Part shown: positions 8,774-50,681 of the stretch, one piece after another
How positions within the stretch are numbered: the stretch's first letter is position 1
Layout: every line of letters begins with the position of its first letter
DNA from: a virus
IMG/VR virus record: IMGVR_UViG_3300042323_000878
Span: 1-55,988 of that record
Reading direction: 5' to 3' (one strand)
DNA: 55,988 bases
The notes under the pieces: generated by a model
What the model saw: only the letters and a program-made list of their open reading frames with translations
Told to the model about the DNA's origin: nothing
Database searches by the model: none
Translations under genes and position numbers: made by a program

Positions 8774-8785
8774 AGGGAGTGCTCC

Positions 8786-9538: not shown

Positions 9539-9585
9539 AAGATGCTCCTGAGTGGTTTGAAAATAAATGCAAAAGTGGTTCATGA

Positions 9586-12057: not shown

Positions 12058-12210
12058 TCAGCAAGGGGTGCGAGAGTTCTTGGCGACTGCGCCGCCCTTG
12101 GCGTAGGCGTCCATTTTCTTGGCAGGTGCTGCGGATTTGCGCTTCATCTCGGGAGGGGCTTTGGCAGATTTGCTGTCTTGCATGAGCTTTTCGAACTTTT
12201 TGATGGCCAT
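12058..12210 (-). CDS. 50-aa Lys/Ala-rich microprotein ending TPC
   Basis: Starts ATG 12210 with CAGGAGCAC before it. The peptide is basic (MAIKKFEKLMQDSK..., PAKKMDAYAKGGAVAK) and ends NSRTPC, followed by TGA and at once the GTG of the portal. It shares the GG-containing motif and the TPC ending with the 36-aa gene at 9428. A DNA-binding or internal-head role is possible from its charge; nothing more can be seen. Confidence 0.6.
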   Translation of the reverse strand: MAIKKFEKLMQDSKSAKAPPEMKRKSAAPAKKMDAYAKGGAVAKNSRTPC

Positions 12211-12238
12211 GGTGCGTGCTCCTGAATAAAGTGAGGGA

Positions 12239-12266
12239 ATTATAACTGAAAACCCGATTTATGCAA
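12239..12266 (-). promoter_or_regulatory. Late-type promoter PL3 (TTGCAT-16-TATAAT)
   Basis: On the minus strand TTGCAT (12266-12261), 16-base spacer containing CGGGTTTTCAG, and TATAAT (12244-12239). It overlaps the last codons of the PcfJ-like gene. It should drive the microprotein, portal, microprotein, 64-aa protein, co-chaperonin and scaffold genes. Confidence 0.75.
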
Positions 12267-14334: not shown

Positions 14335-15586
14335 AATCACACTCCTTCGCTTGAGCGAGTCCGCCGTGTTTGAATCCGACTTTGAATGGCAACAGCTCTA
14401 GGCGGCGGAACTCTTGGTTGCCTTTCAGCGGCCCATATTCGATCGTCTGGTTGCGCATGTATTCTGGCAGCAACCCTTCGCGAGCTTGCAGGTCATAAAA
14501 CTCACCCATAGTCTTCAAGTCCATTGCTTTTGCCTTGTCGTATACGCTGTCCGTCGGACGCGGCACGTACTCGATGCCGAGTTTCTTGACTGCTTTTTCT
14601 GTCGACAAAGATGGCTCGTAATTCAAATCATAAATCCGTCGCACGTGCTCTGGCGTCACGTCTCCATGAATCTGCGCTTCAACGTAGTCCATCGGGTCTC
14701 TGAGGCCCAACTTGTTTTTCAAGGACACAATGTCTTCAAGCGAATACAACTCAGACCGCATCATCGGTGAACCTTCCAGCTCTGTGAGCACACGGGGCAC
14801 TTGCCTAGCGAACCGAGGCGTGCCGCTGCCGTCTTGCAAAGGCTTCAGCCCGTATCGCTCCATGAGCTGAGCGAACTTGCTCGGCAAGCCTTGTTCGTTC
14901 AGCACCTTGGACAAATCGTGCTCGTCTCGACCGTACAGCATGCCCGCCTTTTGCAACCCCAACTTTTCTATCGCGTCTTTGCGGGCTTGGCTGTAGTGCT
15001 TGGCCAATTCATAAAGCATCGACCCCTCAGCCACCGAGTCGTGATAAGGATTGCCCCCTCGCAACACCTCGTCTGCTGTGGCAAAGTTGCCTTTTGTCCT
15101 GTCGAGAGAATCATCGAACGTGATCGTTGTGCGCGCTCGGTGCTCAGGGTGCAACTCTAGTGCGTACTGGCCGTATTGCGGGATGGTGCTTTGGGGAGCG
15201 AGATAGCCTGAGCCTCGGTCAGGGTAGCGCGGGGAGAAGTAATTCTTGGTCGTGGCGAACGGATCCTCTGTCAAGTACCCGTAAGTTTGCCCCTTGTCTG
15301 CGAACATCTCTGGCTCAGCAGCGCTGCGAGCTTCGATCGAGCGTTTTGCACCAGAAGAAGCGCCTGTGCGCTTGGATTCGTGCACGCTCTTGAGTCGCCC
15401 CTCCTTCAGGTCTGTGAGCGATTTGCGACGAACGAGCACTTGTGCTTCGTTGATTGCGCGCAACTCTTCTGGGTTCAATGTGCGCGTGACCAACTCTCCC
15501 GTAGGCGAGCGCGTGGAGGCTTGCAACAGTGCGGCGAGCCTTTGTTCTGCGGCTTGGGCCTTGGCAATCAGATTAAGGATGCTCAT
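14327..15586 (-). CDS. DUF3626-like protein, possible effector
   Basis: 419 aa. The N-terminus is helical. Residues 90-160 contain MFADKGQTYGYLT and YALELHPEHRARTTITFDDSLD, which recall the DUF3626 family (RTT...T.DSL motif), of unknown activity. The C-terminus ends GFKHGGLAQAKECDCG, with the GGLAQ motif also found in the neighbouring 691-aa and the 596-aa internal virion proteins. The ATG at 15586 overlaps the terminase stop by 4 bases. An ejected or host-directed enzyme is conceivable; the assignment is by eye. Confidence 0.5.
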   Translation of the reverse strand: MSILNLIAKAQAAEQRLAALLQASTRSPTGELVTRTLNPEELRAINEAQVLVRRKSLTDLKEGRLKSVHESKRTGASSGAKRSIEARSAAEPEMFADKGQTYGYLTEDPFATTKNYFSPRYPDRGSGYLAPQSTIPQYGQYALELHPEHRARTTITFDDSLDRTKGNFATADEVLRGGNPYHDSVAEGSMLYELAKHYSQARKDAIEKLGLQKAGMLYGRDEHDLSKVLNEQGLPSKFAQLMERYGLKPLQDGSGTPRFARQVPRVLTELEGSPMMRSELYSLEDIVSLKNKLGLRDPMDYVEAQIHGDVTPEHVRRIYDLNYEPSLSTEKAVKKLGIEYVPRPTDSVYDKAKAMDLKTMGEFYDLQAREGLLPEYMRNQTIEYGPLKGNQEFRRLELLPFKVGFKHGGLAQAKECDCG

Positions 15587-17163
15587 GCTGCATACGGGTT
15601 GGCATATTGATGCTTGGGCTTGCGGCGATGTTCGACAACATCCTCAGCCACTTGCAGCTCAAACCAGTGCTCGTTCTTGAGGTAGATGATGGCCTGGCTG
15701 AACGTGTCGACGTAGTCATCATGCTCAGCAACAGGGAACTTGGCGAGTTGCTTCAAGAACGGTTGCGCCCAGCTCACGAACTGTCCAGGGTTTTTTGTCG
15801 ACTCTGGTATCCATAGCACATCCATTTCCAAGGTAGGTGCGGCTTGGTGGGCACGAGCAACTTTGTCCGCGTTTCCTGGATTGTAACCTATGACCGGAAC
15901 CCGTGCCAACCTTAAGTCTTGGATCAGTGACTGACCACTCGCTTTGGCTTCCACAAGGATACGATCAGGCCTTCTTGGCTTAGTGGGTTGGCCTTTGTGT
16001 GCACCCTTAGACCCGCCATACTCTGCCGTCCAGTCATCTACCGCCTTCTTGCGCAAATCAGGGTAACCGAGATGATCATCCCAAGCGTCCAGCAACATCG
16101 CATTGCGCACCCCTTTGCGAGTAAACATACCCCAAACAGTACACGCGGTTGGATCGCCTGATGACTTCTCAGTGAACGCACAATCGTAAGACTGCAACAC
16201 GAACTCCAGTTGTGGCATTGGGTCTGCCGCTGGCCAGCGTTGGAAATGTTTTACACGCAGCAAAGTGGCTTCAGTTGGCACAGGATTTTGTTGCAACTGG
16301 CCTGCAGAGCCGTACTCACCAAGCAACTGCTTAAGGTCAGTCAACTCTTTGGGTCCAAAGCGCTCAGGGCAGATGAGTTCGTCTTTAACTTTGCGTGGAT
16401 CGTATGGGCCAAGCGAGGTCTTGCGATGCTCACCGTCCCACTCAGCAGGGATGCAGATGTGTTCCCAACCGCCAAGGTCTTCAAGGATGTGACCAGAGAC
16501 GTCCTTTTCATGCAGTCGCTGCATGACCACAACCATTGCGTCGGCCTTCGGGTTGTTGAGTCGTGTGCTCCAAACCACATCAAACCATTCTAGAGTTGAT
16601 GTGCGTAAAGCATCAGACTGGGCTTCCTGAGCTGAGTGTGGGTCGTCAAGCAGCAGCCTTGACCCACCTTCGCCTGTTGCTGTACCACCCACAGAAGTTG
16701 CCATTCGGTATCCGGTCTTGTCATTCTCAAACCTGCTTTTTTGGTTTTGATCGCCGGACAGAGCAAACATTGAACCCCAACGCTCTTGGTACCAAGGGGA
16801 TTGGATCAGCCGCCGTGTCTTCAGGTTGTCACGGATTGATAGGTTGCCGGCGTACGACGAGCAAAGATACTTCTGTTGAGGGTCTGTAAGCCACTCCCAT
16901 GCAGGGAACATAACGGAAACGATCGTGGACTTGGAGTGGCGAGGAGGAATGTTGATCAACAAGCGGCGCAGTTCGCCGCTCGCTATGGCTTCAAGGTGCT
17001 CACAAATGACTTCGATATGCCAGGACGGAATAAACGGGATTCCAGGCTCAACAACGTGCCAACTCTGCTTTACAAACTCATAGAGGTTTGACTCAGCTCT
17101 GCGTTTATCACGCTCAAAGCGGATAAGCTCGAGCATGGCGGCAGGGCTAAGACTGCCTCCCAT
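15583..17163 (-). CDS. Terminase large subunit
   Basis: 526 aa. ATPase part: NIPPRHSKST (71-80, Walker A type), LLLDDPHS (170-177, Walker B). Nuclease part with RNase H fold: SYDCAF (325-330), LVEAKASG (403-410) and HDDYVDTFSQA (481-491) give the acidic metal ligands. It pumps DNA into the procapsid through the portal and cuts it at each round. It starts directly after the small terminase stop (TAAATG). Length and motif order are normal. Confidence 0.92.
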   Translation of the reverse strand: MGGSLSPAAMLELIRFERDKRRAESNLYEFVKQSWHVVEPGIPFIPSWHIEVICEHLEAIASGELRRLLINIPPRHSKSTIVSVMFPAWEWLTDPQQKYLCSSYAGNLSIRDNLKTRRLIQSPWYQERWGSMFALSGDQNQKSRFENDKTGYRMATSVGGTATGEGGSRLLLDDPHSAQEAQSDALRTSTLEWFDVVWSTRLNNPKADAMVVVMQRLHEKDVSGHILEDLGGWEHICIPAEWDGEHRKTSLGPYDPRKVKDELICPERFGPKELTDLKQLLGEYGSAGQLQQNPVPTEATLLRVKHFQRWPAADPMPQLEFVLQSYDCAFTEKSSGDPTACTVWGMFTRKGVRNAMLLDAWDDHLGYPDLRKKAVDDWTAEYGGSKGAHKGQPTKPRRPDRILVEAKASGQSLIQDLRLARVPVIGYNPGNADKVARAHQAAPTLEMDVLWIPESTKNPGQFVSWAQPFLKQLAKFPVAEHDDYVDTFSQAIIYLKNEHWFELQVAEDVVEHRRKPKHQYANPYAA

Positions 17164-17643
17164 TTAAGCTTGTCCTGCAGCTTTCACCATCAACTTTTCC
17201 ATCGCAGCAAGTTCTGCGTCATTCAACCCTTTAAGGTCGATGTTTCTCGTCTGTATCGCACCGCCATTGAGCCCGGTCAATTCACTGCGTGCCAACTTAG
17301 GCACGTGGTACTCGACAACGGATTGAAACAAGTTAAATGCACGCTCAGGGTTTGGCCTGACCAAGTAGACAGGATTGCCTTCAGAATCGTACACCGGCTT
17401 ACCGTCTTTGTCGAGCAACACTTCGCCGTTAGCAACCTTGTCTAGCCAACCTTCAAGGCGGTGTGCGTTGCCATCCACGAACTCAGCAATCGCTGCTTTG
17501 GCGGTCAAAGTAATTTTGTTCTGTGTACCAACGGCACGACCAGAACCTTTTGGCTTTGTCGAACCCGGCTTTGCACCGCCGCCATTATTCGACCCAGGCT
17601 TTGCCCCGCCCTTGTTCACCGGAGCAGGCGTTCTTAGCTGCAT
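17164..17643 (-). CDS. Terminase small subunit (probable)
   Basis: 159 aa. The first 40 residues are low-complexity and basic (KGGAKPGSNNGGG...), followed by a helical region with RAVGTQNKITLTAKAAIAEFV and the typical AFNLFQSVVEYHVPKLARSELTG segment near residue 105, seen in many small terminases. It would recognise phage DNA and load the large subunit, which begins at the next base. The N-terminal tail could be a DNA-binding arm. The call rests on position and the conserved segment. Confidence 0.7.
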   Translation of the reverse strand: MQLRTPAPVNKGGAKPGSNNGGGAKPGSTKPKGSGRAVGTQNKITLTAKAAIAEFVDGNAHRLEGWLDKVANGEVLLDKDGKPVYDSEGNPVYLVRPNPERAFNLFQSVVEYHVPKLARSELTGLNGGAIQTRNIDLKGLNDAELAAMEKLMVKAAGQA

Positions 17644-17668
17644 AAATCAACTCCTTCAGTCAGATTGT

Positions 17669-17695
17669 CCTTAACAGATTCTACACCTATTTTTT
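17669..17695 (-). promoter_or_regulatory. Possible promoter before small terminase
   Basis: On the minus strand TTGTCA, about 15 bases, then TAGAAT, overlapping the end of the VRR-NUC gene. Spacing is short for sigma-70 and it does not match the four PL promoters, so it is a weak candidate for starting the terminase operon. Confidence 0.35.
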
Positions 17696-18160
17696 ATTTG
17701 ACAACATCTCTATCTGCAGTGGTTTGCTCTTGCCAAAAGGATCCAGGAAGCGCGTTAACCAATTAGGGATGTGATCACCATAGACATACCCCAACAACTC
17801 CTTGTAAGCCTCATCTGCCCCTTCACAAACGGTGACTTTGTAACCTTTTTGCCTCAACTTCACAATCAACGCGTCTTGCTCTTGGCTTGTTTTGCCCCCG
17901 ATCCGTTTCATCTCGATAAACAACCCGCAATATGGCGGTCTTGGCTCGGCAAGGAATAAATCCGGTGCTCCTGACAAAACTCCTTCTCTTTTCATCTGTG
18001 CCGCTACTCGAAGATCTCTTTTGCCTCCGTTTGGGATGGACATAAAAACCAGGTCAGGATGAAAGTTGCGCACCCTGGCCACAAGCGTAGTTTGCTCGCT
18101 AGATTCCGATTTTGGCTTGGCTTTAACCGGTCCAGGTTTGACTACTTTTGGCTTGATCAT
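17687..18160 (-). CDS. VRR-NUC domain nuclease
   Basis: 157 aa. After a Lys/Pro-rich leader, residues 25-130 have the VRR-NUC order: FMSIPNGGKRD, GVLSGAPDLFLAEPRP, GLFIEMKRIGG (the E-x-K of the PD-(D/E)xK core) and QDALIVKLRQKGYKVTVCEGADEA. Such stand-alone phage nucleases are thought to act on branched DNA before or during packaging, like a Holliday-junction resolvase. It lies between the origin-like repeat cluster and the terminase genes, a sensible place for that role. Confidence 0.85.
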   Translation of the reverse strand: MIKPKVVKPGPVKAKPKSESSEQTTLVARVRNFHPDLVFMSIPNGGKRDLRVAAQMKREGVLSGAPDLFLAEPRPPYCGLFIEMKRIGGKTSQEQDALIVKLRQKGYKVTVCEGADEAYKELLGYVYGDHIPNWLTRFLDPFGKSKPLQIEMLSNKK

Positions 18161-25633: not shown

Positions 25634-26161
25634 ATGAGCACAAAGTTAGTTACCCCGGAGTTTCGTGGATCATTTGTCCACCTGTTAGAGCCGCACGCAA
25701 TCAAAGGTGTGGAGAATGCCAAACCGCGTTACCAAATCACAATTCCTTTGCCAAAAAAAGATGCTTTTTGGACCAAGCTCAATCAAATGGTTGATGAGAC
25801 GGCCAAAGCCAAATGGGGAAAAATTCCCCCGAAAATGAAGTCGCCTGTCAAAGATGGTGACGAGGAAGAACGACCTGAATTGGCCGGTTGTTATAGCATT
25901 CAGGCTACCAGCAACAACAAACCTGGAATTGTTGACGCTCAACTGCAGCCTATCATGGACGCAAATGAGATCTATTCAGGTGCCTACTATCGGGCCTCAG
26001 TTCGTGCCTATGCTTGGGACCATCCTACCGGTGGAAAAGGAGTTTCGATTGCTTTGGACAACATTATGAAAACCAAGGACGGTGAAGCATTCAGCGGTCG
26101 CACAGACGCGTCTGAAGACTTTGCTGACTTTGCACAAGCTGACAACGACATGCTTGGCTAA
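25634..26161 (+). CDS. DUF2815 ssDNA-binding-type protein
   Basis: 175 aa. It has the DUF2815 features: FVHLLEP, PRYQITIPLPKKD, the central CYSIQATSNNKPGIVDAQLQPI, SGAYYRASVRAYAWD and KGVSIALDNIMKTKDGE, then an acidic tail (DASEDFADFAQADNDMLG) like the C-terminal tip of single-strand-binding proteins. It likely coats ssDNA for replication and recombination with the DUF2800 exonuclease and SNF2 helicase. The acidic tip would bind partner proteins. Confidence 0.8.
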   Translation: MSTKLVTPEFRGSFVHLLEPHAIKGVENAKPRYQITIPLPKKDAFWTKLNQMVDETAKAKWGKIPPKMKSPVKDGDEEERPELAGCYSIQATSNNKPGIVDAQLQPIMDANEIYSGAYYRASVRAYAWDHPTGGKGVSIALDNIMKTKDGEAFSGRTDASEDFADFAQADNDMLG

Positions 26162-26259: not shown

Positions 26260-27123
26260 ATGGAAAGCAGGATCATGGGCCTTGTCAAAGCCATGCACGA
26301 AAAGTTTGGTTTAGCTAATGCTGTAGGCCCGATTAGTTTACAAAAAGAAGAAAAAGAATTCCGCATTGCCGCGATGCAAGAAGAACTTAACGAGTACGCT
26401 GAAGCGGAAACATCAGTCGACCAATATGACGCTCTTTTGGATCTTATCGTCTTCGCTGTAGGCACACTCGAGCGTCATGGCTTTCCATTGCTTGAAGGTT
26501 TTGAAGAAGTTATAAAGTGTAACATGGCCAAGGAGTTAGGCCAGAATGGTAAAAAGCGTGGTGGCTTTAAGCGTGATTTAGTCAAGCCTGCAGGTTGGAC
26601 CGGCCCTGAAGAAAAGCTTATGGACATACTCGTCAAAGCCAGTGTTGCAGCCGCCCCAAAGCCGCGTATGAGTCCTTTTTGCGTTGCACAATCGCCAAAA
26701 GAAATAGCCCCTTCCGTTGCACAATCGCCAAAAGAAATAGCCCCTTCCGTTGCACAATCGCCAAAAGAAATAGCCCCTTCTTCTGATGGAACAATTCAAC
26801 CGGGCTTTGCTCCGAAGTTTGATGCTACAAAGGTGCGTGTCGACCTACTCCCTGTCGGCCCCATGTTGCAGATTGCCGAAGTATTTACATTTGGCGCAAA
26901 AAAGTATTTTGCCGATTCGTATCGGCAAGGAGAAACCGTTGCGTGGTCGCGTACTTATGGGTCGATTATGCGCCACATGATGTCTTTTTGGAATGGCGAG
27001 GACAAGGACCCTGAGAGTCATTTATCTCATTTGGCGCATGCAGGTACTCAATTGTGTATTTTGATGGAGCACTCAACCTACAACAAAGACAAAGATGACC
27101 GTTTTGTAAGGGGCCAATCGTGA
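26260..27123 (+). CDS. Fused MazG-like and DUF5664 nucleotide pyrophosphohydrolase
   Basis: 287 aa. N-terminal domain (about 1-110): EKEFRIAAMQEELNEYAEA...DALLDLIVFAVGTLE, the EExxE...D pattern of MazG/PRA-PH-type all-alpha NTP pyrophosphatases. A linker of three 11-residue repeats VAQSPKEIAPS follows (33-base DNA repeats, 26683-26781). C-terminal domain: KVRVDLLPVGPMLQIAEVFTFGAKKY...YGSIMRHMMSFWNGED...SHLSHLAHAGTQL, the DUF5664 family annotated as dATP/dGTP diphosphohydrolase. It would remove unwanted dNTPs. ATG 26260 was chosen for the GAAGGAG site. Confidence 0.75.
   Translation: MESRIMGLVKAMHEKFGLANAVGPISLQKEEKEFRIAAMQEELNEYAEAETSVDQYDALLDLIVFAVGTLERHGFPLLEGFEEVIKCNMAKELGQNGKKRGGFKRDLVKPAGWTGPEEKLMDILVKASVAAAPKPRMSPFCVAQSPKEIAPSVAQSPKEIAPSVAQSPKEIAPSSDGTIQPGFAPKFDATKVRVDLLPVGPMLQIAEVFTFGAKKYFADSYRQGETVAWSRTYGSIMRHMMSFWNGEDKDPESHLSHLAHAGTQLCILMEHSTYNKDKDDRFVRGQS
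26683..26781 (+). repeat. Three tandem 33-base repeats in the linker
   Basis: Three copies of a 33-base unit (26683, 26716, 26749) differ by only one base at the end of the third copy. They encode VAQSPKEIAPS three times and link the two enzyme domains. Near identity at DNA level points to recent slippage duplication. Confidence 0.9.
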
Positions 27124-27767
27124 ACGTAACAAGCATCAGGCAGATATTTGTTAATAAGCTTGCCAATGAAGACTTTGCCGATGATGGCAATCTGGAGATT
27201 GTCAACGCCTCGTTTATCGCCGATGCGTCTTTGATCTTTGGCACTGTAAACGATGAATGGAACGGCAGAGAGCTCGAGTGGTACCTGAGCCAGTCTCTCA
27301 ACGTGAATAGCATTAGGCCTCCGGTGCCTGTTGTTTGGAAAAATGTTGCTACAAAAGACGGGCGCATAAACAGCAACTATGGTTGGTGTATTTTTAGCCG
27401 AGAAAATGGGTATCAGTTCCATAAAGCAATTGACGCGTTGGTTGCTAATAAAGCAAGTCGCCAAGCAGTCATGGTTTACATCCGGCCGTCGATGCATGAA
27501 GACTCTAAAGCCGACGGGATGCGTGACTTCATGTGCACCTACTCAACCCAGTTACTTATTCGTGGTGACCAATTGCACATGATTGTTAACATGCGGTCAA
27601 ATGACGCAATCTACGGATTTAAAGGAGACAGGTTTTGGCAAAGTACAGTCCTTGACTATAGTTTGATCAGATTGAAACAAACGTACCCAGAACTTGTCAG
27701 AGGCAACCTTTACTGGAATGCTGGCAGCTTGCACATCTACCCTCGTCACTTTGGTTTAGTTGAATGA
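27120..27767 (+). CDS. Thymidylate-synthase-family pyrimidine hydroxymethylase/methylase
   Basis: 215 aa, shorter than ThyA (264). NYGWCIF (86-92), the catalytic Cys in DFMCTYSTQLLIRGDQLHM (Cys139) and MRSNDAIYGFKGDRFWQ (158-174) fit the ThyA fold. By eye, the Asn that selects dUMP in ThyA (in PFN) is Asp here (GD, residue 170), as in dCMP hydroxymethylases. So the product could be hydroxymethyl-dCMP, hydroxymethyl-dUMP or dTMP. GTG start overlaps the previous stop by 4 bases. It feeds the modification pathway. Confidence 0.75.
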   Translation: MNVTSIRQIFVNKLANEDFADDGNLEIVNASFIADASLIFGTVNDEWNGRELEWYLSQSLNVNSIRPPVPVVWKNVATKDGRINSNYGWCIFSRENGYQFHKAIDALVANKASRQAVMVYIRPSMHEDSKADGMRDFMCTYSTQLLIRGDQLHMIVNMRSNDAIYGFKGDRFWQSTVLDYSLIRLKQTYPELVRGNLYWNAGSLHIYPRHFGLVE

Positions 27768-28723
27768 TTTACAACCCATTCACCAATATACCTAAGCAGC
27801 CTAGGTCCCATGTGCGTGGCTGGGCGCTGCATTGGGCCGAATGCCTAGGCACTACAGTTGCCGGACTTGACAGCCGGCTCGATGACCACTCTACTATCTA
27901 CATTGAACATGGAGTCAACTTTGGTGGAGTGCTTAACTTGTTTGGCGGAGTAACGGGGCAATTGGTTGATCGGTTAGATGAGTTGGTTAACTATAAAGGT
28001 AACTTAGTCAGCCTAGACTGGCCAATGCCAAACTATGCACATCAACTAAGTCTACGAATAGGCCAAGCAACATGTTCACCTAGACTGACACAAACTCTTT
28101 TGGATGCATTAGAAGAAAGATTAACGCGGTCAATCACACTGACCCAACGCGATTTGTCAGTTGACCACGTAACTATTGGTGACAGTCACTCAACTGCTTT
28201 TGCACCTGTACAATCTAGCGTCTTACGTACAAACGGGCTTACTTTACACGGGGCACTTCAAAAAGGCCACTTTATTGGGCAAATGGGCCGCTTGGTTCAT
28301 CAACCAAAGCGCGTAACTTTGGCCTGTGGATCAATAGACATCCGACACCATATAGGCCGTCAGGCAGACCCTAAGCAGGCACTTTTAGGGTTATGTGGCA
28401 ACTATTCAGACCTAGCTGACTTTTTGGCAGATGAGTATGGCGTTGAGGTTGAAATAGCGACCCCGGTGCCAGTGGAATGGGAAGGTAGAAAGATACCACA
28501 AACAGGGTTTTATAAGAAGGAGCCATTTAGCGGCACACAAGCCCAAAGGCGCGAATGGACTCAAATGTTCATTGACAAAATGTGTGAGCACGGGCTAATT
28601 AGCCCGCCTCAAGGCTGGTATTCAATGGATGGCAAAGAGTACGCAGACACCTACATGGAGCCTAACTCTTCGGTGCACATTGCACCGCCTTTTTATCGTA
28701 GAAATGATTGGGGACAACTATGA
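27764..28723 (+). CDS. SGNH-hydrolase-like protein of the modification cluster
   Basis: 319 aa. TIGDSHS (137-143) is like SGNH block I (GDS), ACGSIDIRHH (187-196) stands where block III (G.ND) is expected, and SSVHIAPP near residue 305 could supply the catalytic His of block V. The first 100 residues have no clear relatives in my memory. The gene is locked by ATGA overlaps between the TS-family and PLP genes, so it probably acts on the same modified nucleotide. Substrate unknown; a deacylase or transferase are options. Confidence 0.5.
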   Translation: MIYNPFTNIPKQPRSHVRGWALHWAECLGTTVAGLDSRLDDHSTIYIEHGVNFGGVLNLFGGVTGQLVDRLDELVNYKGNLVSLDWPMPNYAHQLSLRIGQATCSPRLTQTLLDALEERLTRSITLTQRDLSVDHVTIGDSHSTAFAPVQSSVLRTNGLTLHGALQKGHFIGQMGRLVHQPKRVTLACGSIDIRHHIGRQADPKQALLGLCGNYSDLADFLADEYGVEVEIATPVPVEWEGRKIPQTGFYKKEPFSGTQAQRREWTQMFIDKMCEHGLISPPQGWYSMDGKEYADTYMEPNSSVHIAPPFYRRNDWGQL

Positions 28724-29634
28724 GTCTATTTACCATCACGACTGACAAGTCAAATAAAGACATTCCTGATGGCATGGACATCGTACAGGCTAAGCAACAC
28801 TATGTCGCTATGCGCAAAGGTTTTGTCTCTAAGCTAAGTCCTGCGGTAGTTAAAAGATATGAGGGCAAGTGGGTATTTCGTGGCGATGTAAGTGCGAGTA
28901 GTTTGAAAGGTTATGGGGCTGAGCAGTTAATAGCTGAATGCAAAGAAGAAGTGCTTGTTTATTGCGCGCCTAGGGTAGGGATGGCTATGGACGCAATTGC
29001 TACATTGGCCAAGCTTTACGGTAAGCGTTGTGTTTTCTTTTGCCCAGCTTCTAGCGAAGCATCAATGCACCAAAAAGCGTTGCTTGCCTATGGTGCCGAC
29101 TTACGCTTCATCAAGATTGCAGCCATGCCAACACTTAATAGTTATGCAAAAAAGTGGGCCGATAAACATGGTGCAAAGTATCTTCCATTTGGCCTGGCCA
29201 AAACACCCTCAGTCACAGCAGGCATCATCAACTTGGCCGATCAAATGAAAATTGTGCCGAGTGAGATATGGATGTCAGTCTCTACCGGGACCGCAATCCG
29301 GGCCCTACAGATTGCCTGGCCAGGAGCAGCGTGTAAAGGGGTTGTTGTGGCTCGCAACATGCATGATGGTGAAATAGGTCAAGCCATGTTGTGGTCATCA
29401 TCACAGCCATTCTTAAAAGACGTTCCCGTGGCTCATAGGCCTCCCTTTCCATCGACATCAAATTACGATGCAAAATGCTGGCAAGATTTTGATGCATTTG
29501 CTGCCCCGGATGCAATCTTCATCAATGTAGGAACAGACGATAAGGTGTTGGAGATGTATAAGCAGGTAGCCAACGTGCCGCTAAAAAGCCAGCGCGAATG
29601 GCATGACCTACGTGATTTGGAGCGTGGGCTATGA
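28720..29634 (+). CDS. PLP-dependent enzyme, fold type II
   Basis: 304 aa. SSLKGYGAEQLI (61-72) resembles the PLP-lysine motif of tryptophan-synthase-beta-like enzymes (S-F-K-x-R-G-A), with Lys63 as the probable cofactor lysine. RVGMAMDAIATLAKLYGKRCVFF and LLAYGADLRFIK match the following conserved region, and SVSTGTAIRAL the glycine loop that holds the phosphate. Such enzymes act on amino acids or amino-acyl adducts. In hypermodifying phages PLP enzymes change an amino acid already attached to DNA. ATG 28720 was preferred over TTG 28708 because of the ATGA overlap. Confidence 0.65.
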   Translation: MSLFTITTDKSNKDIPDGMDIVQAKQHYVAMRKGFVSKLSPAVVKRYEGKWVFRGDVSASSLKGYGAEQLIAECKEEVLVYCAPRVGMAMDAIATLAKLYGKRCVFFCPASSEASMHQKALLAYGADLRFIKIAAMPTLNSYAKKWADKHGAKYLPFGLAKTPSVTAGIINLADQMKIVPSEIWMSVSTGTAIRALQIAWPGAACKGVVVARNMHDGEIGQAMLWSSSQPFLKDVPVAHRPPFPSTSNYDAKCWQDFDAFAAPDAIFINVGTDDKVLEMYKQVANVPLKSQREWHDLRDLERGL

Positions 29635-30767
29635 GAATAGAAACCACGGCCTATTATGATGAAATGGTTCGTTATGCAGCCATGGCAAAAACTCAACAAG
29701 CAGAGTGTAACTTAGGCACAATCCCGCACATGGAAGGATCAGTCAAGGATGATCTAATGCGCCATGTTGAGCTTTATGACGTGGTCAATCGCAAATACGC
29801 CGGCTTTACACAAATTGTACTTGACCTTTGGTACAACACATCGCCTGACCATCCTTACGCCCATAAGCTGCACTCTGTCAGAAAACCGATATGTAATTCG
29901 TTTCAAGGAGTTGAGAATGAGTGGTGTTTAGCTGAATGGCTTTATGTCTTTATCGTACATCGAGTCACAGGCAGCGGCATCAACTACGCCAAAAAACCGA
30001 GTGGCTATAACAACACTATTTTGCCTAAGTTTGCATCTTGTGGCAGCATCGATCAAATGGTTCAAGTCATTAAGGGTCGTGGTCCAGAATCGATTTACAC
30101 TTCTGTTGGTTATCAATTTCCGGCATTCCCTAAGAAGGTAGACGGGTACAGACTCGGCGGTGATTACTTCCTTTGTGCCTATGCACCTCAACTTGCCCGT
30201 GAAATGTCAGAATGGTTAAACTGTGGCACAAAGCATGACTTGCGCGACGTTGGCGAGTGGATGTTTGAATGGAATAAAAAGCAAGGGCTTAGGGCTTACA
30301 AATTCCAGTACGCGGCAGTCGTTAGTGATATAGCCGACTTTTTTCCCCGATATGTCAACCCGCATAGCCTGTTTTTCTATGGCACTAACGCAGTCGAGTG
30401 TTTGAAGTACGCAGCTAAGCCCTTAAGTAAAGGTAGTGAGCAAGAATTTCTAGACGAGGTATCTATGCGTTTTAGTAACGACATCGGGTCTACAGCCTAC
30501 GACGGGGAAGATATTTTTTGCGATGGAATTCGCTGGATAGAAAACTATGTACGCCCTGGCCATGACTATCAACATGTCGACAGAGATAGAGTTTGGAATA
30601 GTAGCAATATCGTAGACCACCCTTATGGCCGCCAGAAGGCAATGCTGCATCATGGCTTGATCGACTCGTTTAACAAGTTGACTGTCCACCCATCAGATGA
30701 CTACGTACTTAAGCAGGCAGGGATGAGCAAAGACCAATATACACTTAAAGTGCATGGCTTGGACTGA
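29631..30767 (+). CDS. Putative amino acid:DNA transferase (aGPT-pyrophosphorylase-like)
   Basis: 378 aa, helical. Segments recall the alpha-glutamyl/putrescinyl-thymine pyrophosphorylase families: the helical core EWLYVFIVHRVTGSGINY (102-119), NTILPKF (128-134), FQYAAVVSDIADFFPRYV followed by SLFFYGTNAVECL, and DIFCDGIRWIENYVRPG. Such enzymes displace pyrophosphate from an activated 5-hydroxymethyl pyrimidine in DNA with an amino acid or polyamine. The match is by eye and needs a profile search. It follows the PLP gene with an ATGA overlap. Confidence 0.5.
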   Translation: MRIETTAYYDEMVRYAAMAKTQQAECNLGTIPHMEGSVKDDLMRHVELYDVVNRKYAGFTQIVLDLWYNTSPDHPYAHKLHSVRKPICNSFQGVENEWCLAEWLYVFIVHRVTGSGINYAKKPSGYNNTILPKFASCGSIDQMVQVIKGRGPESIYTSVGYQFPAFPKKVDGYRLGGDYFLCAYAPQLAREMSEWLNCGTKHDLRDVGEWMFEWNKKQGLRAYKFQYAAVVSDIADFFPRYVNPHSLFFYGTNAVECLKYAAKPLSKGSEQEFLDEVSMRFSNDIGSTAYDGEDIFCDGIRWIENYVRPGHDYQHVDRDRVWNSSNIVDHPYGRQKAMLHHGLIDSFNKLTVHPSDDYVLKQAGMSKDQYTLKVHGLD

Positions 30768-30960
30768 CAAAAGAGGACGCTTAGTTTGCGGTTGTGGTGG
30801 TTATCACTTTCCACACAGAAAAAGAAGTCTTCGATGCTGGTATCATCCAAATGCTGAATACTTAGCAATGAGACGTCAAGGTATGGACCACATGGAAGCG
30901 ATGATTGAGTTGATATGGCATAGTGACAAAAAGCCATCAAACGATCCTTGCCCCTTCTAA
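30754..30960 (+). CDS. Small Cys/His-rich protein
   Basis: 68 aa. CGCGGYHFPHRKRSLRCWYH gives three Cys and four His/aromatic residues in 20 positions, a probable metal-binding finger. The tail is SNDPCPF. The start overlaps the transferase gene by 14 bases. It could be a small DNA- or zinc-binding accessory to the modification enzymes; no family recognised. Confidence 0.6.
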   Translation: MAWTDKRGRLVCGCGGYHFPHRKRSLRCWYHPNAEYLAMRRQGMDHMEAMIELIWHSDKKPSNDPCPF

Positions 30961-30964
30961 ATAC

Positions 30965-30972
30965 ATTGTACA
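30965..30972 (+). promoter_or_regulatory. TTGTACAA operator-like site before dCMP deaminase
   Basis: The palindrome TTGTACAA lies about 10 bases before the ATG at 30982. If TACAAT is a -10 box, the message would begin at or next to the ATG and be leaderless. It is another copy of the TGTACA element found at modules P1-P3. Confidence 0.4.
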
Positions 30973-30981
30973 ATTAAATTT

Positions 30982-31410
30982 ATGACTAGACCGACCCTCG
31001 ACCAGACCTATATGGAAGTTGCACGAGCATTTGCCAAACGTGCAACTTGTAGCAGAAGGCAGGTAGGTGCCGTCATTACCGGAAAAGGCTACATACTGAG
31101 CTCCGGCTATAACGGATCTTATCCTGGTTCTGTTCATTGTATAGACTCACCATGCGCAGGCTCAGGTCTGCCTAGTGGTACAGGTCTTGATAGCTGTATG
31201 AGCGCCCACGCAGAACAAAATGCTATTGCCAGGTTAAAAGACTTTGATGGTGCAGATACGTTGTACGCTACGACTTCTCCCTGCATTTCGTGTACAAAAT
31301 TGATTCTTTGTACGAATATTCGTCGCATCGTTGCTGATCAAAATTACCCGCAAAGCGGAAAGGAATTGTGGCTAAGTGCCGGCCGAGTGTGGGTCAACTA
31401 TGCGGACTAA
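30982..31410 (+). CDS. dCMP deaminase
   Basis: 142 aa. Zinc and catalytic motif HAEQNAI (76-82) and SPCISCTKLI (99-108, PCxxC) are intact; RRQVGAVI and SSGYNGSYPGSVHC are the typical substrate loops. It converts dCMP to dUMP, supplying the TS-family enzyme, or could deaminate a modified dCMP. Length fits phage deaminases. It sits between the modification cluster and the polymerase. Confidence 0.9.
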   Translation: MTRPTLDQTYMEVARAFAKRATCSRRQVGAVITGKGYILSSGYNGSYPGSVHCIDSPCAGSGLPSGTGLDSCMSAHAEQNAIARLKDFDGADTLYATTSPCISCTKLILCTNIRRIVADQNYPQSGKELWLSAGRVWVNYAD

Positions 31411-33184
31411 AGCAGTATTTGACATTGAGTGCTATACTAACTATTTCCTTATAGCAGTTAAGTCACTAGCAAACAATAAGCATGTTTTGTTTGAACGCTC
31501 AGATTGGACAGACTTTGACGTTGAACAGCTTAAGGGCCTTCTTAGCAAGTACACCATCATCACGTTTAACGGTAATCGGTACGACATTCAGCTCCTTAAG
31601 TACGCTATTAGTGGTGCCACCGCGACACAACTAAAAGTACTTTCTGACGACATAATTGTAAACGATCTTCGTTCATGGGTTGCTGAGTCCAAGTACAACT
31701 TGCCTAGGTGTCAGTACCTAGACCACATCGATTTGATTGAAGTTGCACCTGGTAAAGCTTCATTGAAGATTTATGGAGGTAGACTGCATAGCAGAAGAAT
31801 GCAAGATTTGCCTATAGAACCAAATGCAATTATAACTGACGACCAAAGGGCTTTACTCAGCGCGTACTGTCTAAACGACCTTGACACAACAATCGACCTT
31901 TACAATCGACTTAAGGGTCAAATAGAACTACGCGAGCAAATGGGTAAAGAGTATGGTATCGACCTACGCTCAAAGTCTGATGCACAGATAGCCGAGGCCG
32001 TGATAAAAAAACAGATTGAGGCGATCAAAGGGGACCGAGTCTATCGGCCTGACTTGCCTAAAAACTACTCGTTTAAGTATGTTGCACCCTCGTTCATACA
32101 GTTTAGCGATCCACAACTTAAACATGCACTAAACGTATTTGAAACACACCCTTTTACACTTGACGAAAAAGGCGACGTCGCTGAGCCTGAAGAGGTCGGC
32201 AAGCTTAAGATCAAACTTGGTCGCAGCGAGTACCAACTAGGCATTGGGGGCATTCATTCTTGCGAGAAGAAAGTCCACTATGTAGCTGACCAAGACCACT
32301 TACTCATAGATCGTGATGTCACGAGCTACTATCCAAACATCATTTTGAGTCAAAGGCTTTTTCCTAAGCACATTGGGCCTGAATTCCTGACCGTATATAA
32401 AGGGCTTGTCGATCGGCGCGTTAAGGCTAAGCGCGATGGTGACAAAGTGACTAATGAGGCACTTAAGGTGACGATAAATGGATCCTTTGGCAAGTTTGGA
32501 AGCCGGTGGTCGGCCCTTTACGGTCCAAACCTGTTGATTCAAACAACCGTGACAGGCCAGCTCAGTTTGCTTATGTTGATAGAGGCTCTTGAAGAGGCAG
32601 GCATACAGGTTGTGAGTGCCAATACTGACGGCATCGTGATCTATTGCCACAAGCGCAACCAAGCGGTCCTAAATCAAACAATTGTTGCTTGGGAAGAGGC
32701 AACCGGCTTTACCACAGAAGAGACCAGCTATACTGCACTCTACTCCCGTGACATTAACAACTACCTGGCGCTCAAGCCAGGGGGAAGCTATAAGGCCAAA
32801 GGGACATACGCTGATGCGGACTTGTCTAAAACCCCTACTGCTCAGATATGCACCCAAGCGGTTGTGGATTATCTACAGCTAGGTATACCGATTCAAACGA
32901 CCATTCACTCTTGCCAGGACATTCGTCAGTTTGTGTCTGTCAGGTCTGTCACCGGCGGGGCTGTCAAAGGGGATAAATACTTAGGCAAAGCGGTACGTTG
33001 GTACTATGCAAAAGGAGAGAAAGGTGCCATTAACTACAAGAAAAATGGCAACAAGGTTGCTATGACCGATGGAGCAAAGCCACTAATGCTGCTGACTGAC
33101 ACTTTGCCAGAAGACCTCGACTATGAATGGTATGTGGCAAAAACCATGTCTATACTTAAAGATTTGGGGGTTGTTACAAAATAG
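31400..33184 (+). CDS. Family B DNA polymerase with 3'-5' exonuclease
   Basis: 594 aa, compact. Exonuclease: DIE (8-10), FNGNRYD (56-62), YCLNDLD (156-162). Polymerase: motif A DVTSYYPNII (306-315, like DxxSLYPSII), motif B KVTINGSFGKFG (356-367), motif C ANTDGIVI (407-414). Motif C has Thr-Asp-Gly where family B usually has Asp-Thr-Asp-Ser. It copies the phage genome, perhaps with modified nucleotides. ATG 31400 overlaps the deaminase by 11 bases; GTG 31376 would add 8 residues. The stop lies at the beginning of module P3. Confidence 0.85.
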   Translation: MRTKAVFDIECYTNYFLIAVKSLANNKHVLFERSDWTDFDVEQLKGLLSKYTIITFNGNRYDIQLLKYAISGATATQLKVLSDDIIVNDLRSWVAESKYNLPRCQYLDHIDLIEVAPGKASLKIYGGRLHSRRMQDLPIEPNAIITDDQRALLSAYCLNDLDTTIDLYNRLKGQIELREQMGKEYGIDLRSKSDAQIAEAVIKKQIEAIKGDRVYRPDLPKNYSFKYVAPSFIQFSDPQLKHALNVFETHPFTLDEKGDVAEPEEVGKLKIKLGRSEYQLGIGGIHSCEKKVHYVADQDHLLIDRDVTSYYPNIILSQRLFPKHIGPEFLTVYKGLVDRRVKAKRDGDKVTNEALKVTINGSFGKFGSRWSALYGPNLLIQTTVTGQLSLLMLIEALEEAGIQVVSANTDGIVIYCHKRNQAVLNQTIVAWEEATGFTTEETSYTALYSRDINNYLALKPGGSYKAKGTYADADLSKTPTAQICTQAVVDYLQLGIPIQTTIHSCQDIRQFVSVRSVTGGAVKGDKYLGKAVRWYYAKGEKGAINYKKNGNKVAMTDGAKPLMLLTDTLPEDLDYEWYVAKTMSILKDLGVVTK

Positions 33185-41734: not shown

Positions 41735-43705
41735 TCACTTCAAGGTCTTGAGGTAATCCTCTATGCCCATAGAGCCAGAGTCGACCGGTGCGCTCGCAGC
41801 GTCGTCAATGCTTTCTTGAGGGGCTTCGGTTCCTTGCGGGGACGGCCAGACCGCAGACGCGGCCCCAGTCGTCAGTCCTCGTTCTGTCGCCCCTGCCGCA
41901 AACGCTTTTGGTCCAGCGCCAGCAGCTTGCTCTTCAAGCAACTTGACGACCGCAGCGACGTCTTTCGGGCTTTTAGACATCAGCATCTCAGAGAGCTTGT
42001 CTGCTGTTTGTTCGCTCATAGAAGCGTTGCGCGTTGCGCGGCTCGCCAAGTTGGTGAGCGAATTCCAAAAGCCTCCCGATATCGCATCTGCCACAGCGCT
42101 GCCGATGCCTTGCCCTTCTTCGAACTGCTTTTGCATCTCAATCCGTTGGCCAGTTTGCGAGCCGCCTAGGATGCGGTTAGATTGATTGAACAATTGCGAC
42201 TCGCGCTCCAGCGCTGACTTGAACAAGTTGAATTGCGCAGGGTTGTCGAACAAAGGTTGCAACTTGGCTTGCATCTCGGGAGAGCCGATGATCCGTTGAG
42301 CCGCGTTCATGTTGCCCGATGGGCCCATGATTTTGCCGTACAAGTCTCGAGACACCCCTGTGCGGAAAGCTTCTTTTTCTGCAGGGCCCATGCCTTTAAC
42401 TAAGTTGACGACCTGCTCATGGTCCAGCTTGTTGAAGTCGTTCATCCCTTTGCGCAAAGCATCAATCACCTCCATGTCGCCTGCGTAAGCTTGTCGTGCA
42501 AATTGGTAAGCCGGGACATTCTCGTCGATGGCGTTCACAAAAACCTTGCGCAAGTCGCGCAAAGCGCTGGCCTCTGCCGTGCTCATGCCTTTGCCTTTGT
42601 AAGCGTCGTCGATGGTCGCGTCGATGCCGCGCTTGATGTAATCCAGTGTGCGCACGTCTGGTGTCTGGACAGATTCCACGATTGTGTTGCCTGCCCGGTC
42701 TTTGCCTAGCTTGTAGATCTCAGGCAGCATATATTTTGCCGGGTCTTGCCCACTGAGCTTTGCCGCCATGGCTTCTTTGTTGGCGATTGCTTTTGCTTTT
42801 TCGAAGAACCCCGCAAACTCAGGGTCTTGAAGCACTTGCATGATCCGAGGGTCGTCGACTGCGCCGTGCGCGTATGCGTCGTCGTAGACGGTTTTTGCTC
42901 CTGCGCGCAGCTCAGAAACCAGTCGTTGCTCGTCGTCGTAGAAGTTGCCGGGCTTGAGCGCGGCGGCGACTTGCTGGTGAGTGCGTTCCTTGGCTCCGAG
43001 CTTTTGGTCTGTCAGCGCTTTTTCTATCCGCAAAGAACCGGCCCCAGACCTTTGTGCGACGGTTTCTGCGAGCTTGGCTGTGCCGGGGGAGGTGTTGGCA
43101 ACAACCGAAGGCACGCGCATCGAGGTGTCTTGCCGCATCATCTTTTCAATTTGCTGAGGGGTTGCGCCGGTTTGCGCGAGGGCGGTGTTGAGCTTGCCGG
43201 CAGCGCGGTTGGCGATGAATCCCTCTGTCGGAGCCAACCGCTCCCGCAACCACGTCGCTCCTGCACTAGCGCCTCGCACCACGGGAGCCGCTGCTGCGCC
43301 CATAGCACCACCCAAGGCAGCGCCCGAAGCCGCTCCAGTGCCCCGTTGGCCTTCGGTCGCTGTGCCTGCACCGGAGACGCCGCCAGCCAGTGCGCCCAAC
43401 CCGCCCAACTTCGCTGCAGCAATTGCTGACGTCCTGCTGAGTTGATTCACACCGAGCGCTTGTCCGCCCGGCACCATCATCATCGCAATTCCCGGAGCCG
43501 CGCCGCCCACGAATTCAGAAGCTCCGGAGGTGAATGGGTAGTTCTTGGCGTAATCTCCATACTCAGAGCGGATCTTGGCGACATTTTCTTCGTATGTGCC
43601 TTGTCCGAGCTTGGACCGCAACCAAGCTTCCGCCTCGTCGCCCCAACCCATGCCGAGTCCTTGCCCAAGAACGGCACGAGCTGTGTTTTTGCCAAAGTCT
43701 GCCAT
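41735..43705 (-). CDS. Internal virion / DNA-ejection protein
   Basis: 656 aa. The N-terminal 170 residues hold very Gly/Ala-rich hydrophobic stretches (VGGAAPGIAMMMVPGG, GGLGALAGGVSGAGTA, ASGAALGGAMGAAAAPVV) that could cross a membrane; the rest is a helical Gln/Lys-rich rod. This is typical of podovirus proteins carried inside the capsid and ejected to form a channel through the cell envelope. The start ATG 43705 overlaps the upstream stop by one base (TGATG). Last gene of the tail operon. Confidence 0.7.
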   Translation of the reverse strand: MADFGKNTARAVLGQGLGMGWGDEAEAWLRSKLGQGTYEENVAKIRSEYGDYAKNYPFTSGASEFVGGAAPGIAMMMVPGGQALGVNQLSRTSAIAAAKLGGLGALAGGVSGAGTATEGQRGTGAASGAALGGAMGAAAAPVVRGASAGATWLRERLAPTEGFIANRAAGKLNTALAQTGATPQQIEKMMRQDTSMRVPSVVANTSPGTAKLAETVAQRSGAGSLRIEKALTDQKLGAKERTHQQVAAALKPGNFYDDEQRLVSELRAGAKTVYDDAYAHGAVDDPRIMQVLQDPEFAGFFEKAKAIANKEAMAAKLSGQDPAKYMLPEIYKLGKDRAGNTIVESVQTPDVRTLDYIKRGIDATIDDAYKGKGMSTAEASALRDLRKVFVNAIDENVPAYQFARQAYAGDMEVIDALRKGMNDFNKLDHEQVVNLVKGMGPAEKEAFRTGVSRDLYGKIMGPSGNMNAAQRIIGSPEMQAKLQPLFDNPAQFNLFKSALERESQLFNQSNRILGGSQTGQRIEMQKQFEEGQGIGSAVADAISGGFWNSLTNLASRATRNASMSEQTADKLSEMLMSKSPKDVAAVVKLLEEQAAGAGPKAFAAGATERGLTTGAASAVWPSPQGTEAPQESIDDAASAPVDSGSMGIEDYLKTLK

Positions 43706-44934
43706 CACTCTGCCTCCTCAGACTGGGCAGGGCTTGTGTCGCGGTAAACACCTGCGCTGACGTCCGATAAACGCTTGGCCGCGCGAGCGCGAGAAGTCTT
43801 GAGTGCTTTGTATGCGTTGGCCATGATGGCTTTGCGCTCTTCTATTGTTTTTGCTTCCAAACCTTGCACAGCCATGAGCGCCTTGCGTTCGTCGTTGGAA
43901 ATTGCTCCGGGGAAGGTCTCTTTCAACTGAGACAAAGCCGCTTTTTGCAACAAATTTTCCATCGTGCGAGTGTTTTCGAGCTTTTTGTCTTTGGACCCAA
44001 CAGCTTCCAGCGCGACGCGTTGTGCTTTGTCGACAAGAGAGGCGTCGAACGTGTTGGGGTTAAGCCGGAAAGCCTGATCCAAGCCGACCAGCGCCTGATC
44101 GACTTGCGCGACATGGTCTTCCGTTTCTCTTTTCAGCTGCACTTCTTTGGGTGTCAGTTTTTTGCTTGCCTCTTGCTGCGCCGTCATTTTTTCTTTGTTC
44201 AGCGCGAGCGTTTGTCCGGCAATTCCCGTCATCATGGCCTTGTACCAGTCGCCTTTTTCTAGGTTAGCCTTTATGTCTTTTTCCACAAAGGCATTGTACT
44301 CAGGTGTTCCGGGTTTCAAGCCGCTGTCTGCTGCACGCTTGCCAGAGTCTGACTGAGGTTTGCCAGACGCAAGGTATTGTTCCATCATCTTCACTTCGCG
44401 CGCGCGGTTGTCACGCATTTCTTCGCTCGCCAAGGTACGCACGGTGGCGAGGTCTGTGTTCGCCGCGTCTACCCGGTTTTTCGCGCCTGCTATGCCTAGT
44501 TGCATCTTGGCCGCGCGGTCTGCCGACTGAGCCGCGCGCTCTTCTTTCTTGAACTCTGCCATCGACCCTGCCGCGCCAGCCAAGCTCTCGCTGAACGCGC
44601 CTGTCCTTGTCGGTGCGCCGAACGCTGCTGCCAGCCGAAAGTACATCTCAGCCTTGGACGGGCCGTTGCCGGGTTGATTGAGGGCTTGCGTAATCATGTT
44701 GTTGAACGAGTCTGTTTCTTTTTTTGCAGCTTCACGAGCAGACCGGACTTCGCCGCCATAGTCGTTGGTGCGCGGTTGGGCCATGTAAGCCTGAAACATT
44801 GCACGGATGTCGGGTGCAGCGACAGGCGCGCCTTTGGGCGCGGCGGCCACTTCCTGTCGCTGCATAATCACGATGTCTGACGGCTTTGCGCCAGTCATGT
44901 CGTATTTTTCTGCCAATTGCTCGAAATCTTCCAT
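43705..44934 (-). CDS. Internal virion protein
   Basis: 409 aa, highly helical, rich in Ala, Lys, Glu and Met (EFKKEERAAQSADRAAKMQLG..., ERKAIMANAYKALKTSRARAAKRL). No membrane segment. Its position between two Gly/Gln-rich virion proteins suggests an ejectosome component or core protein. No enzyme motif. Confidence 0.6.
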   Translation of the reverse strand: MEDFEQLAEKYDMTGAKPSDIVIMQRQEVAAAPKGAPVAAPDIRAMFQAYMAQPRTNDYGGEVRSAREAAKKETDSFNNMITQALNQPGNGPSKAEMYFRLAAAFGAPTRTGAFSESLAGAAGSMAEFKKEERAAQSADRAAKMQLGIAGAKNRVDAANTDLATVRTLASEEMRDNRAREVKMMEQYLASGKPQSDSGKRAADSGLKPGTPEYNAFVEKDIKANLEKGDWYKAMMTGIAGQTLALNKEKMTAQQEASKKLTPKEVQLKRETEDHVAQVDQALVGLDQAFRLNPNTFDASLVDKAQRVALEAVGSKDKKLENTRTMENLLQKAALSQLKETFPGAISNDERKALMAVQGLEAKTIEERKAIMANAYKALKTSRARAAKRLSDVSAGVYRDTSPAQSEEAE

Positions 44935-44946
44935 GGTGGATCCTTT

Positions 44947-48483: not shown

Positions 48484-48956
48484 TTTGCTCTCCACCATTT
48501 ATGCGACTCATATTCGCGTTTCAAAAAACCATAAATCAATAAATCTTCGCCGTCTGGGAACGCCTCTCTCATGCACCCTTCTGCCTTGAACCCCAAGTGC
48601 TCATCGAACCGCACCGCGCCTGCGTTGCTCTTGCGGACGAGGCCTGTGACGCGCTTGGCGTTCAGGGTGTCGAAAACATAGCCAAACAACCCATTGAACA
48701 TGGCCACAATCGCGCCAGGCGTGGCCCAGGACGATCCTTCGGTCGCAGCGGTGTGCATGTCCACATTGCGGCTCGTGAAGTTGCTCATGACCACAACAAA
48801 CACAAATTCCCCTTCTTTGTTCACGCAGCTCATCGCTCGGCACAATCCAGTCGGACAAGTTATGCCTAAGACCTCTTTTGCCCAGCTGATCGCTTCTCCT
48901 TCTCGCTCGAATCCAATGAATCTCAAAGCAACGCTCCCACAAATCTGTCTGCCCAT
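48480..48956 (-). CDS. GNAT-family acetyltransferase
   Basis: 158 aa. FVFVVVMSNFTSRNVDMHTA, FGYVFDTLNAKRVTGLVRKSNAGAVRFDEHLGFKAEGCMREAFPDGEDLLIYGFLKREY has the GNAT core: the (K)RVTG..R..N..A......GF..EG region binds acetyl-CoA. A TTG at 48926 with GGGAG before it and a TTGA overlap could be the true start (148 aa). In the tail operon it could acetylate a virion protein or a host target. Confidence 0.7.
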   Translation of the reverse strand: MGRQICGSVALRFIGFEREGEAISWAKEVLGITCPTGLCRAMSCVNKEGEFVFVVVMSNFTSRNVDMHTAATEGSSWATPGAIVAMFNGLFGYVFDTLNAKRVTGLVRKSNAGAVRFDEHLGFKAEGCMREAFPDGEDLLIYGFLKREYESHKWWRAK

Positions 48957-49150
48957 TCGTTCCAGTTATCGAACCCGTACGGGTCTGGCACCCCTTTGCC
49001 CAAAGCAACGATGTTGCGGAATTGCACCGCCCAGTCTTGCCATCGAGCTTCGTCGTCCAGCCGCCCCAAAGCCGCGTACGAGTCCAACTCCAACACAACA
49101 CAGTCTGACCAGTCTCTGACGGTCATTCCTGTCGGGCGCGTAATGTTCAT
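48923..49150 (-). CDS. Small protein, unknown function
   Basis: 75 aa, MNITRPTGMTVRDWSDCVVLELDSY, DDEARWQDWAVQFRNIVALGKGVPDPYGFDNWNEWADRF: Trp-rich, acidic. This type often lies beside the stabilisation protein in podovirus genomes. ATGA overlap with the upstream gene. It may be an assembly factor. Confidence 0.6.
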   Translation of the reverse strand: MNITRPTGMTVRDWSDCVVLELDSYAALGRLDDEARWQDWAVQFRNIVALGKGVPDPYGFDNWNEWADRFVGALL

Positions 49151-50679: not shown

Positions 50680-50681
50680 GC

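Follow-up and report, generated by a model that had tools for sequence, protein, structure and literature searches.

The 55,988-nt sequence analysed here, the IMG/VR record IMGVR_UViG_3300042323_000878 of a virus known from metagenomes only (hereafter the window), carries a cassette of seven genes at positions 26260-33184 which we read, with a probability of roughly 0.6, as a system for the amino-acid-derived hypermodification of 5-hydroxymethylcytosine (hmC). In this reading, a protein that combines an SGNH fold with a part resembling T4 beta-glucosyltransferase (BGT) stands where the thymidine systems have a DNA kinase. The evidence comes from a dCMP hydroxymethylase, the SGNH-fold protein, a pyridoxal phosphate (PLP) enzyme related to gp52 of phage M6, and a helical protein of 378 amino acids (aa) which would work like an amino acid:DNA transferase (ADDT). 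An earlier reading of the sequence (the original prediction) had proposed a modified pyrimidine, perhaps amino-acid-derived, and this proposal is now well supported by the hydroxymethylase, the homology to M6 gp52 and the fold of the 378-aa protein.

The hydroxymethylase and the starting base

The protein of the thymidylate synthase (TS) family shares about 50% of its residues with T4-like dCMP hydroxymethylases, and the profile of its 22 relatives matches T4 gp42 (PDB 1b49) at E=3e-105, versus ~3e-22 for the best thymidylate synthases. Cys139 is invariant in the relatives (22/22), and so is Asp170 (22/22), which occupies the position of E. coli Asn177 where an aspartate selects for dCMP. The same position holds Asp in three remote TS-family proteins from other genomes bearing the SGNH, PLP and 378-aa genes, while Asn is found in the TS (gp58) of phage M6, a phage with a uracil derivative in its DNA. 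In the MetaGPA study, TS enzymes with Asp177 and co-occurring PRA-PH and dCMP deaminase domains were associated with viral contigs that had been selected for carrying modified cytosine (PMC8670742). The sequence thus argues strongly for a dCMP-selective hydroxymethylase of the T4 gp42 type. Because of the Asp at the dCMP-selecting position and the strength of the gp42 match, cytosine is taken as the starting base, and hmC is very probably an intermediate. The original prediction had reasoned by analogy with hypermodified thymidine; its TS-homologous hydroxymethylase stands, but thymidine as the starting base is rejected on Asp170, in agreement with the gp42-like sequence.

A conserved module and the search for a kinase

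With the 378-aa family as bait in IMG/VR, loci were counted where at least 3.5 kb was available on both sides (n=34). The SGNH gene lies near the 378-aa gene in all 34 and the PLP gene in 31, in varying gene orders, and two of the three loci lacking the PLP gene carry it elsewhere in the genome. The reverse bait, the SGNH family, gave 11 loci without a 378-aa gene, in each of which the contig breaks off beside the module. Genes for the hydroxymethylase, the deaminase and MazG are nearby in about half of the 378-aa loci, and the linkage of the three genes spans unlike phages, on contigs of up to 256 kb. There is hence good evidence in IMG/VR that the SGNH, PLP and 378-aa genes are conserved as a module, and it is likely that this module decorates hmC further. 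It is extremely improbable that the phage makes plain hmC only, with the three proteins serving some other function such as nucleotide or cofactor metabolism. Nothing specific speaks for this, and it is opposed by the constant linkage of the three genes across unlike phages, often with a hydroxymethylase, as well as by the place of the gp52 family next to the ADDT in M6.

Next to the 378-aa gene, 31 loci, mainly of larger phages (e.g., L010:3559-4566), encode a further conserved helical protein, X2, with a length of about 330 aa; hhalign gives a bare hint of its relation to the 378-aa family (E=0.006, probability 6%). In the same locus L010, a protein with C5-methyltransferase-like motifs (PCAGLS) is encoded directly behind the module (6507-7730).

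In the known thymidine pathway, a kinase activates 5-hydroxymethyldeoxyuridine (5-hmdU) in DNA (PMC6449724). Its helical component, HMUDK_hel, was not found by profile search in 19 module-bearing records, nor was a P-loop kinase of the M6 gp54 type found by protein search in 15 such records, several of the records searched exceeding 100 kb. The three controls, phages M6, Vi01 and phiW-14, each yielded both. The window has no P-loop kinase, and its only Walker A motif belongs to a primase/helicase-like open reading frame (ORF) at 18.4-20.8 kb. We therefore have good grounds to describe the module as one without detected HMUDK-type kinases, much as the original prediction had seen no hydroxymethyluracil DNA kinase.

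The kinase search bears on two alternatives. The cassette could hypermodify thymidine as in M6, ViI and phiW-14, where a TS homologue leads to 5-hydroxymethyl-dUMP, which is phosphorylated in DNA and substituted. The PLP family shared with M6 gp52 and the ADDT-like fold of the 378-aa protein fit this pathway, but the gp42-like hydroxymethylase with Asp instead of Asn, and the failure to find HMUDK_hel and the P-loop kinase in module-bearing records, leave it very improbable. Alternatively, no leaving group may be needed: the 378-aa protein would join hmC to a nucleophile in a direct condensation, leaving the SGNH protein to trim or protect the product afterwards. C5-methyltransferases can replace the hydroxyl of hmC with thiols in vitro, and a direct condensation would accord with the kinase not being found; however, the SGNH and 378-aa genes are equally obligate, which would be unusual for a late trimming step, and we regard this route as quite unlikely.

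The PLP enzyme

The original prediction of a PLP enzyme is borne out by a match to phrog_7093 (E=2e-45), of which M6 gp52 is a full-length member (E=2e-159); its fold type II is supported by a remote, weak match to cysteine synthase. The hhalign comparison of 26 relatives with M6 gp52 gave a probability of 97 and E=1.2e-10 over 214 columns, and the Schiff-base Lys63 (K67 in a 308-aa reading of the gene) is invariant in all 26. Sequence comparison therefore strongly supports a common family for the PLP enzyme and gp52. In M6, gp52 is encoded in the 5-aminoethyl-deoxyuridine (5-NedU) cluster, directly behind gp51, the Pfam ADDT member. Through this membership the cassette is linked with the chemistry of amino acids on DNA, and the balance tilts, if modestly, towards an amino-acid-derived side chain. 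The substrate of the cassette enzyme is likely to be an unusual one, since the usual substrate loop, Ser/Thr-x-Gly-Asn, is altered to Pro-Arg-x-Gly.

Relatives of the PLP enzyme also occur inside proteins annotated as DNA modification methylases in Erythrobacter phage R6L (locus L102) and Microcystis phage Mae-JY30 (locus L103). The Mae-JY30 relative adjoins ParB/sulfiredoxin genes; these relatives possibly belong to another DNA modification system.

The 378-aa protein

Relatives of the 378-aa protein number 303 in IMG/VR, and others lie on four contigs of metagenome-assembled bacterial genomes with the same neighbouring genes. A search of 50,697 phage records did not turn up the protein, it is missing from every cultured phage record tested, and tblastn of two relatives into phage isolates was likewise negative. 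Neither the window protein nor its relatives match Pfam or PHROGs, NCBIfam yielded nothing usable for the family, and the profile searches of the PDB with this family and with the SGNH family returned chance matches only.

The AlphaFold2 model, built with 32 relatives, has a pLDDT of 87 and a pTM of 0.88. Among the viral models of BFVD, the nearest is A0A6J5L8T5, 52% identical and named as containing an amino acid:DNA transferase domain; the remote A0A6J5LCY1, likewise named, matches at E=5.9e-4 with a TM score of only ~0.4. Weaker still in that search were the helical proteins of the phiW-14 and SP10 5-hmdU kinases. Foldseek gave no significant match in the PDB. In a structural comparison scored by Z, the top PDB matches were the 8-oxoguanine glycosylase AGOG (Z 8.1) and the DUF2419 queuine salvage enzyme (Z 7.9). 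The model gives good support for a predicted helix-hairpin-helix (HhH)-like fold.

The SGNH-fold protein

Structure prediction of the SGNH protein (pLDDT 93.4) bears out the label SGNH-like from the original prediction and adds a BGT-like N-terminal part. SGNH esterases match the model at Z ~12 over residues 127-316, and the GDSH block (G139-D140-S141) and His305 are invariant in all 42 relatives. The predicted SGNH fold of the C-terminal domain is thus well founded. Block III, usually GxND, reads G[N/S]ID, and the Asp of the DxxH motif is absent; an invariant Glu299 nearby may, from a reading of the sequence, replace it.

Several lines of evidence, each weak, jointly suggest that the N-terminal part resembles BGT. 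T4-Gluco-transf (PF09198) is matched by 15 of the 42 relatives (best E=0.0046), hhalign aligns the family to T4 BGT in the FFGG region (P=2e-5, 63 columns), and Foldseek matches the model to the BGT structure 1j39 (E=8.7e-3, TM 0.25). Scans of the family against Pfam, PHROGs and NCBIfam gave nothing usable beyond weak T4-Gluco-transf and GDSL matches. A glycosyltransferase was considered and rejected, for the sugar-donor (UDP-glucose-binding) domain is absent and residues 127-316 are the SGNH domain. We propose instead that the protein acts on hmC in DNA, either activating it by acylation or through acyl transfer or hydrolysis.

The SGNH protein might itself be the main decorator, (amino)acylating hmC directly to an ester-linked side chain, with the 378-aa and PLP proteins supplying or shaping the acyl donor. 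The SGNH fold includes acyltransferases, the BGT-like part suggests hmC in DNA as the acceptor, and Aeromonas phages 44RR and 25 have SGNH homologues and a dCMP hydroxymethylase without the PLP enzyme. Exposed side-chain esters, however, would be labile, and the fold of the obligate 378-aa partner is akin to that of base-substituting enzymes, so that direct acylation by the SGNH protein is rather unlikely.

Proposed pathway and its weighing

Under the preferred reading, an amino-acid-derived hypermodification of hmC, the gp42-type enzyme would convert dCMP to 5-hydroxymethyl-dCMP, while the MazG/DUF5664 protein and the dCMP deaminase would tune the nucleotide pools, so that the phage polymerase incorporates hydroxymethyl-dC. 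The SGNH-fold protein may then flip out or bind hmC in DNA and give its hydroxymethyl group a leaving group, an ester, in replacement of the kinase of the thymidine systems. The 378-aa protein would swap this leaving group for an amino acid, which the gp52-like PLP enzyme would trim, probably by decarboxylation. The presumed end product is an aminoalkyl-type side chain shielding the DNA from nucleases. What the side chain is, in which order the steps run and precisely which reactions the SGNH and 378-aa proteins catalyse are inferences. The SGNH protein is proposed as the kinase's replacement because its gene matches the 378-aa gene in constancy, and this role as activator is tentative. Similarly doubtful, though possible, is the complete kinase-free route, in which a BGT-like-guided SGNH protein esterifies hmC, whereupon a divergent transferase puts an amino acid in the place of the ester for a gp52-like enzyme to trim, yielding a widespread nucleobase of a kind not yet isolated.

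Several observations weigh against this proposal. The Pfam ADDT family (PF18724) is matched neither in the window nor in 32 relatives of the 378-aa protein or 13 other records, while three control phages match, and the protein is not a member of HMUDK_hel by sequence either. Compared by hhalign, its family likewise showed no match to ADDT, HMUDK or the 44RR C-terminus, though the control is weak, as the three-sequence ADDT and HMUDK sets missed each other too. The glycosylase-like matches at Z ~8 are middling and could reflect a mere common helical arrangement, though they agree with the viral matches. The absence of the kinase falls short of proof because many contigs are fragmentary. The motifs for the oxyanion Asn and the triad Asp look altered in the SGNH protein, which makes its reaction a guess. 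Fold-type II PLP enzymes catalyse many reactions. That M6 gp52 decarboxylates the DNA-attached amino acid, as reportedly described by Lee et al., NAR 2021, serves as a lead only. As for the original prediction, which had likened the 378-aa protein to amino acid:DNA transferases, the profile search and structure prediction of 29631-30767 gave a divided answer: the fold resemblance and the viral models so named agree with it, but a sequence match to Pfam ADDT, HMUDK_hel or any base-modifying family was not found. Because the protein is not an ADDT or HMUDK_hel member by sequence, we say that, judging from its model, it may work like an amino acid:DNA transferase, not that it is one.

Cassette layout and genomic context

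The ORF check of the window found all seven cassette genes intact (Table 1), with domain matches that agree with the run described in the original prediction, which had also placed Cys139 and Lys63 correctly. The first five genes are linked through four successive 4-nt GTGA/ATGA overlaps. Upstream, the cassette is flanked by a gene for a Gp2.5-like single-strand binding protein (25634-26161), the family B polymerase (PolB) standing at the other end; a terminase large subunit and a portal protein are also encoded within the window. The 68-aa ORF occurs in only 3 loci and is not a constant member of the cassette.

Table 1. Genes of the cassette, with coordinates in the window and supporting evidence
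Product	Position	Strand	Evidence
MazG-like (PRA-PH)/DUF5664 fusion (dATP/dGTP diphosphohydrolase N-terminal)	26260..27123	+	PF01503 E=1.3e-5 (residues 9-86); PF18909 E=1.6e-26 (residues 186-281)
Putative dCMP hydroxymethylase, T4 gp42 type, 215 aa, Cys139 and Asp170	27120..27767	+	~50% identity to T4-like enzymes; 1b49 profile match
Predicted SGNH-fold protein, possibly BGT-like N-terminal part, 319 aa	27764..28723	+	Model; PF09198 matches in relatives; hhalign
Fold-type II PLP enzyme, 304 aa, Lys63	28720..29634	+	phrog_7093; family of M6 gp52
Helical protein, 378 aa, putatively amino acid:DNA transferase-like (HhH glycosylase-like fold)	29631..30767	+	Predicted structure
68-aa ORF, probably a small protein	30754..30960	+	phrog_17384 E=3e-6
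dCMP deaminase, 142 aa	30982..31410	+	PF00383 E=2e-19; phrog_174 E=4e-36
Family B DNA polymerase, 602 aa	31376..33184	+	phrog_1252 E=3e-200

The ATG start of the MazG/DUF5664 gene at 26260 is preceded by GAAGGAG. By analogy with T4 gp56, its product probably eliminates an ordinary dNTP, for instance dCTP. The linker between its domains (window 26700-26800) holds three perfect copies of VAQSPKEIAPS. GC content is mostly 55-58% in the structural arms (1-18000 and 42000-55988) and 45-50% in the replication and modification part (18000-40000).

The cassette polymerase is about 50% identical to its nearest relatives, those of Queuovirinae phages. Just upstream of the polymerase and processivity factor, these phages carry genes for 7-deazaguanine DNA modification (queE, queC, queD, folE and tRNA-ribosyltransferase-like genes), as seen upstream of PolB in Pseudomonas phage JG054 (L205) and Alteromonas phage R7M (L206). 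The position upstream of PolB appears to host alternative DNA-modification cassettes, and the presence of 7-deazaguanine genes at the cassette's position in the phages with the nearest polymerase suggests that such cassettes are exchanged.

Significance

If the proposal is true, the amino-acid decoration of phage DNA extends beyond thymidine and can start from hmC, without the DNA kinase on which the known pathways depend. No report of an amino-acid-derived cytosine modification in phages was found in the literature searched, the coverage of which is incomplete. Given the module's hundreds of relatives in environmental viruses and the lack of the 378-aa protein among the phage records searched, a common DNA chemistry may have eluded isolation. 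The SGNH protein with its BGT-like part and the divergent transferase are possible tools for the labelling of hydroxymethylcytosine.

Comparison with known systems

Aeromonas phage 44RR2.8t has a gp42-type enzyme in its genome and an ORF233c whose N-terminal part is homologous to the SGNH protein (33% identity); unlike the cassette protein, ORF233c (L012:9992-12379) has a fused C-terminal part that is weakly HMUDK_hel-like (E=0.0036). A relative of the PLP enzyme was not found in the 44RR2.8t genome, and the DNA modification of this phage appears undescribed in the papers searched. In Aeromonas phage 25, which has a gp42-type enzyme besides its SGNH homologue, the latter lies near a UDP-galactopyranose-mutase homologue and a 358-aa protein (L013:6767-10038), perhaps a sugar-based variant.

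The M6 cluster for 5-NedU comprises gp51 (ADDT), gp52 (PLP), gp53 (annotated as a photolyase), gp54 (P-loop kinase), gp55 (HMUDK_hel) and gp58 (TS). The two systems have in common a hydroxymethylase, an ADDT or ADDT-like protein and a gp52-family PLP enzyme, clustered near replication genes. They differ in the base, here cytosine and not uracil, in the HMUDK_hel and P-loop kinase, which were not found here, and in the added SGNH/BGT-like protein; moreover, no gp53 homologue is seen in the cassette, and the sequence of the 378-aa protein lies far from that of gp51. With T4, the cassette shares the hydroxymethylase family and the resemblance of the SGNH protein's N-terminal part to that of BGT, but an SGNH domain takes the place of the C-terminal glycosyltransferase domain of BGT, and the PLP and ADDT-like proteins are added. 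The 5-carbamoyloxymethylcytosine system described with MetaGPA (PMC8670742) likewise joins an Asp177 TS, PRA-PH and a dCMP deaminase to an enzyme decorating hmC; the decorator there is a carbamoyltransferase, whereas here it would be the SGNH/PLP/378-aa module.

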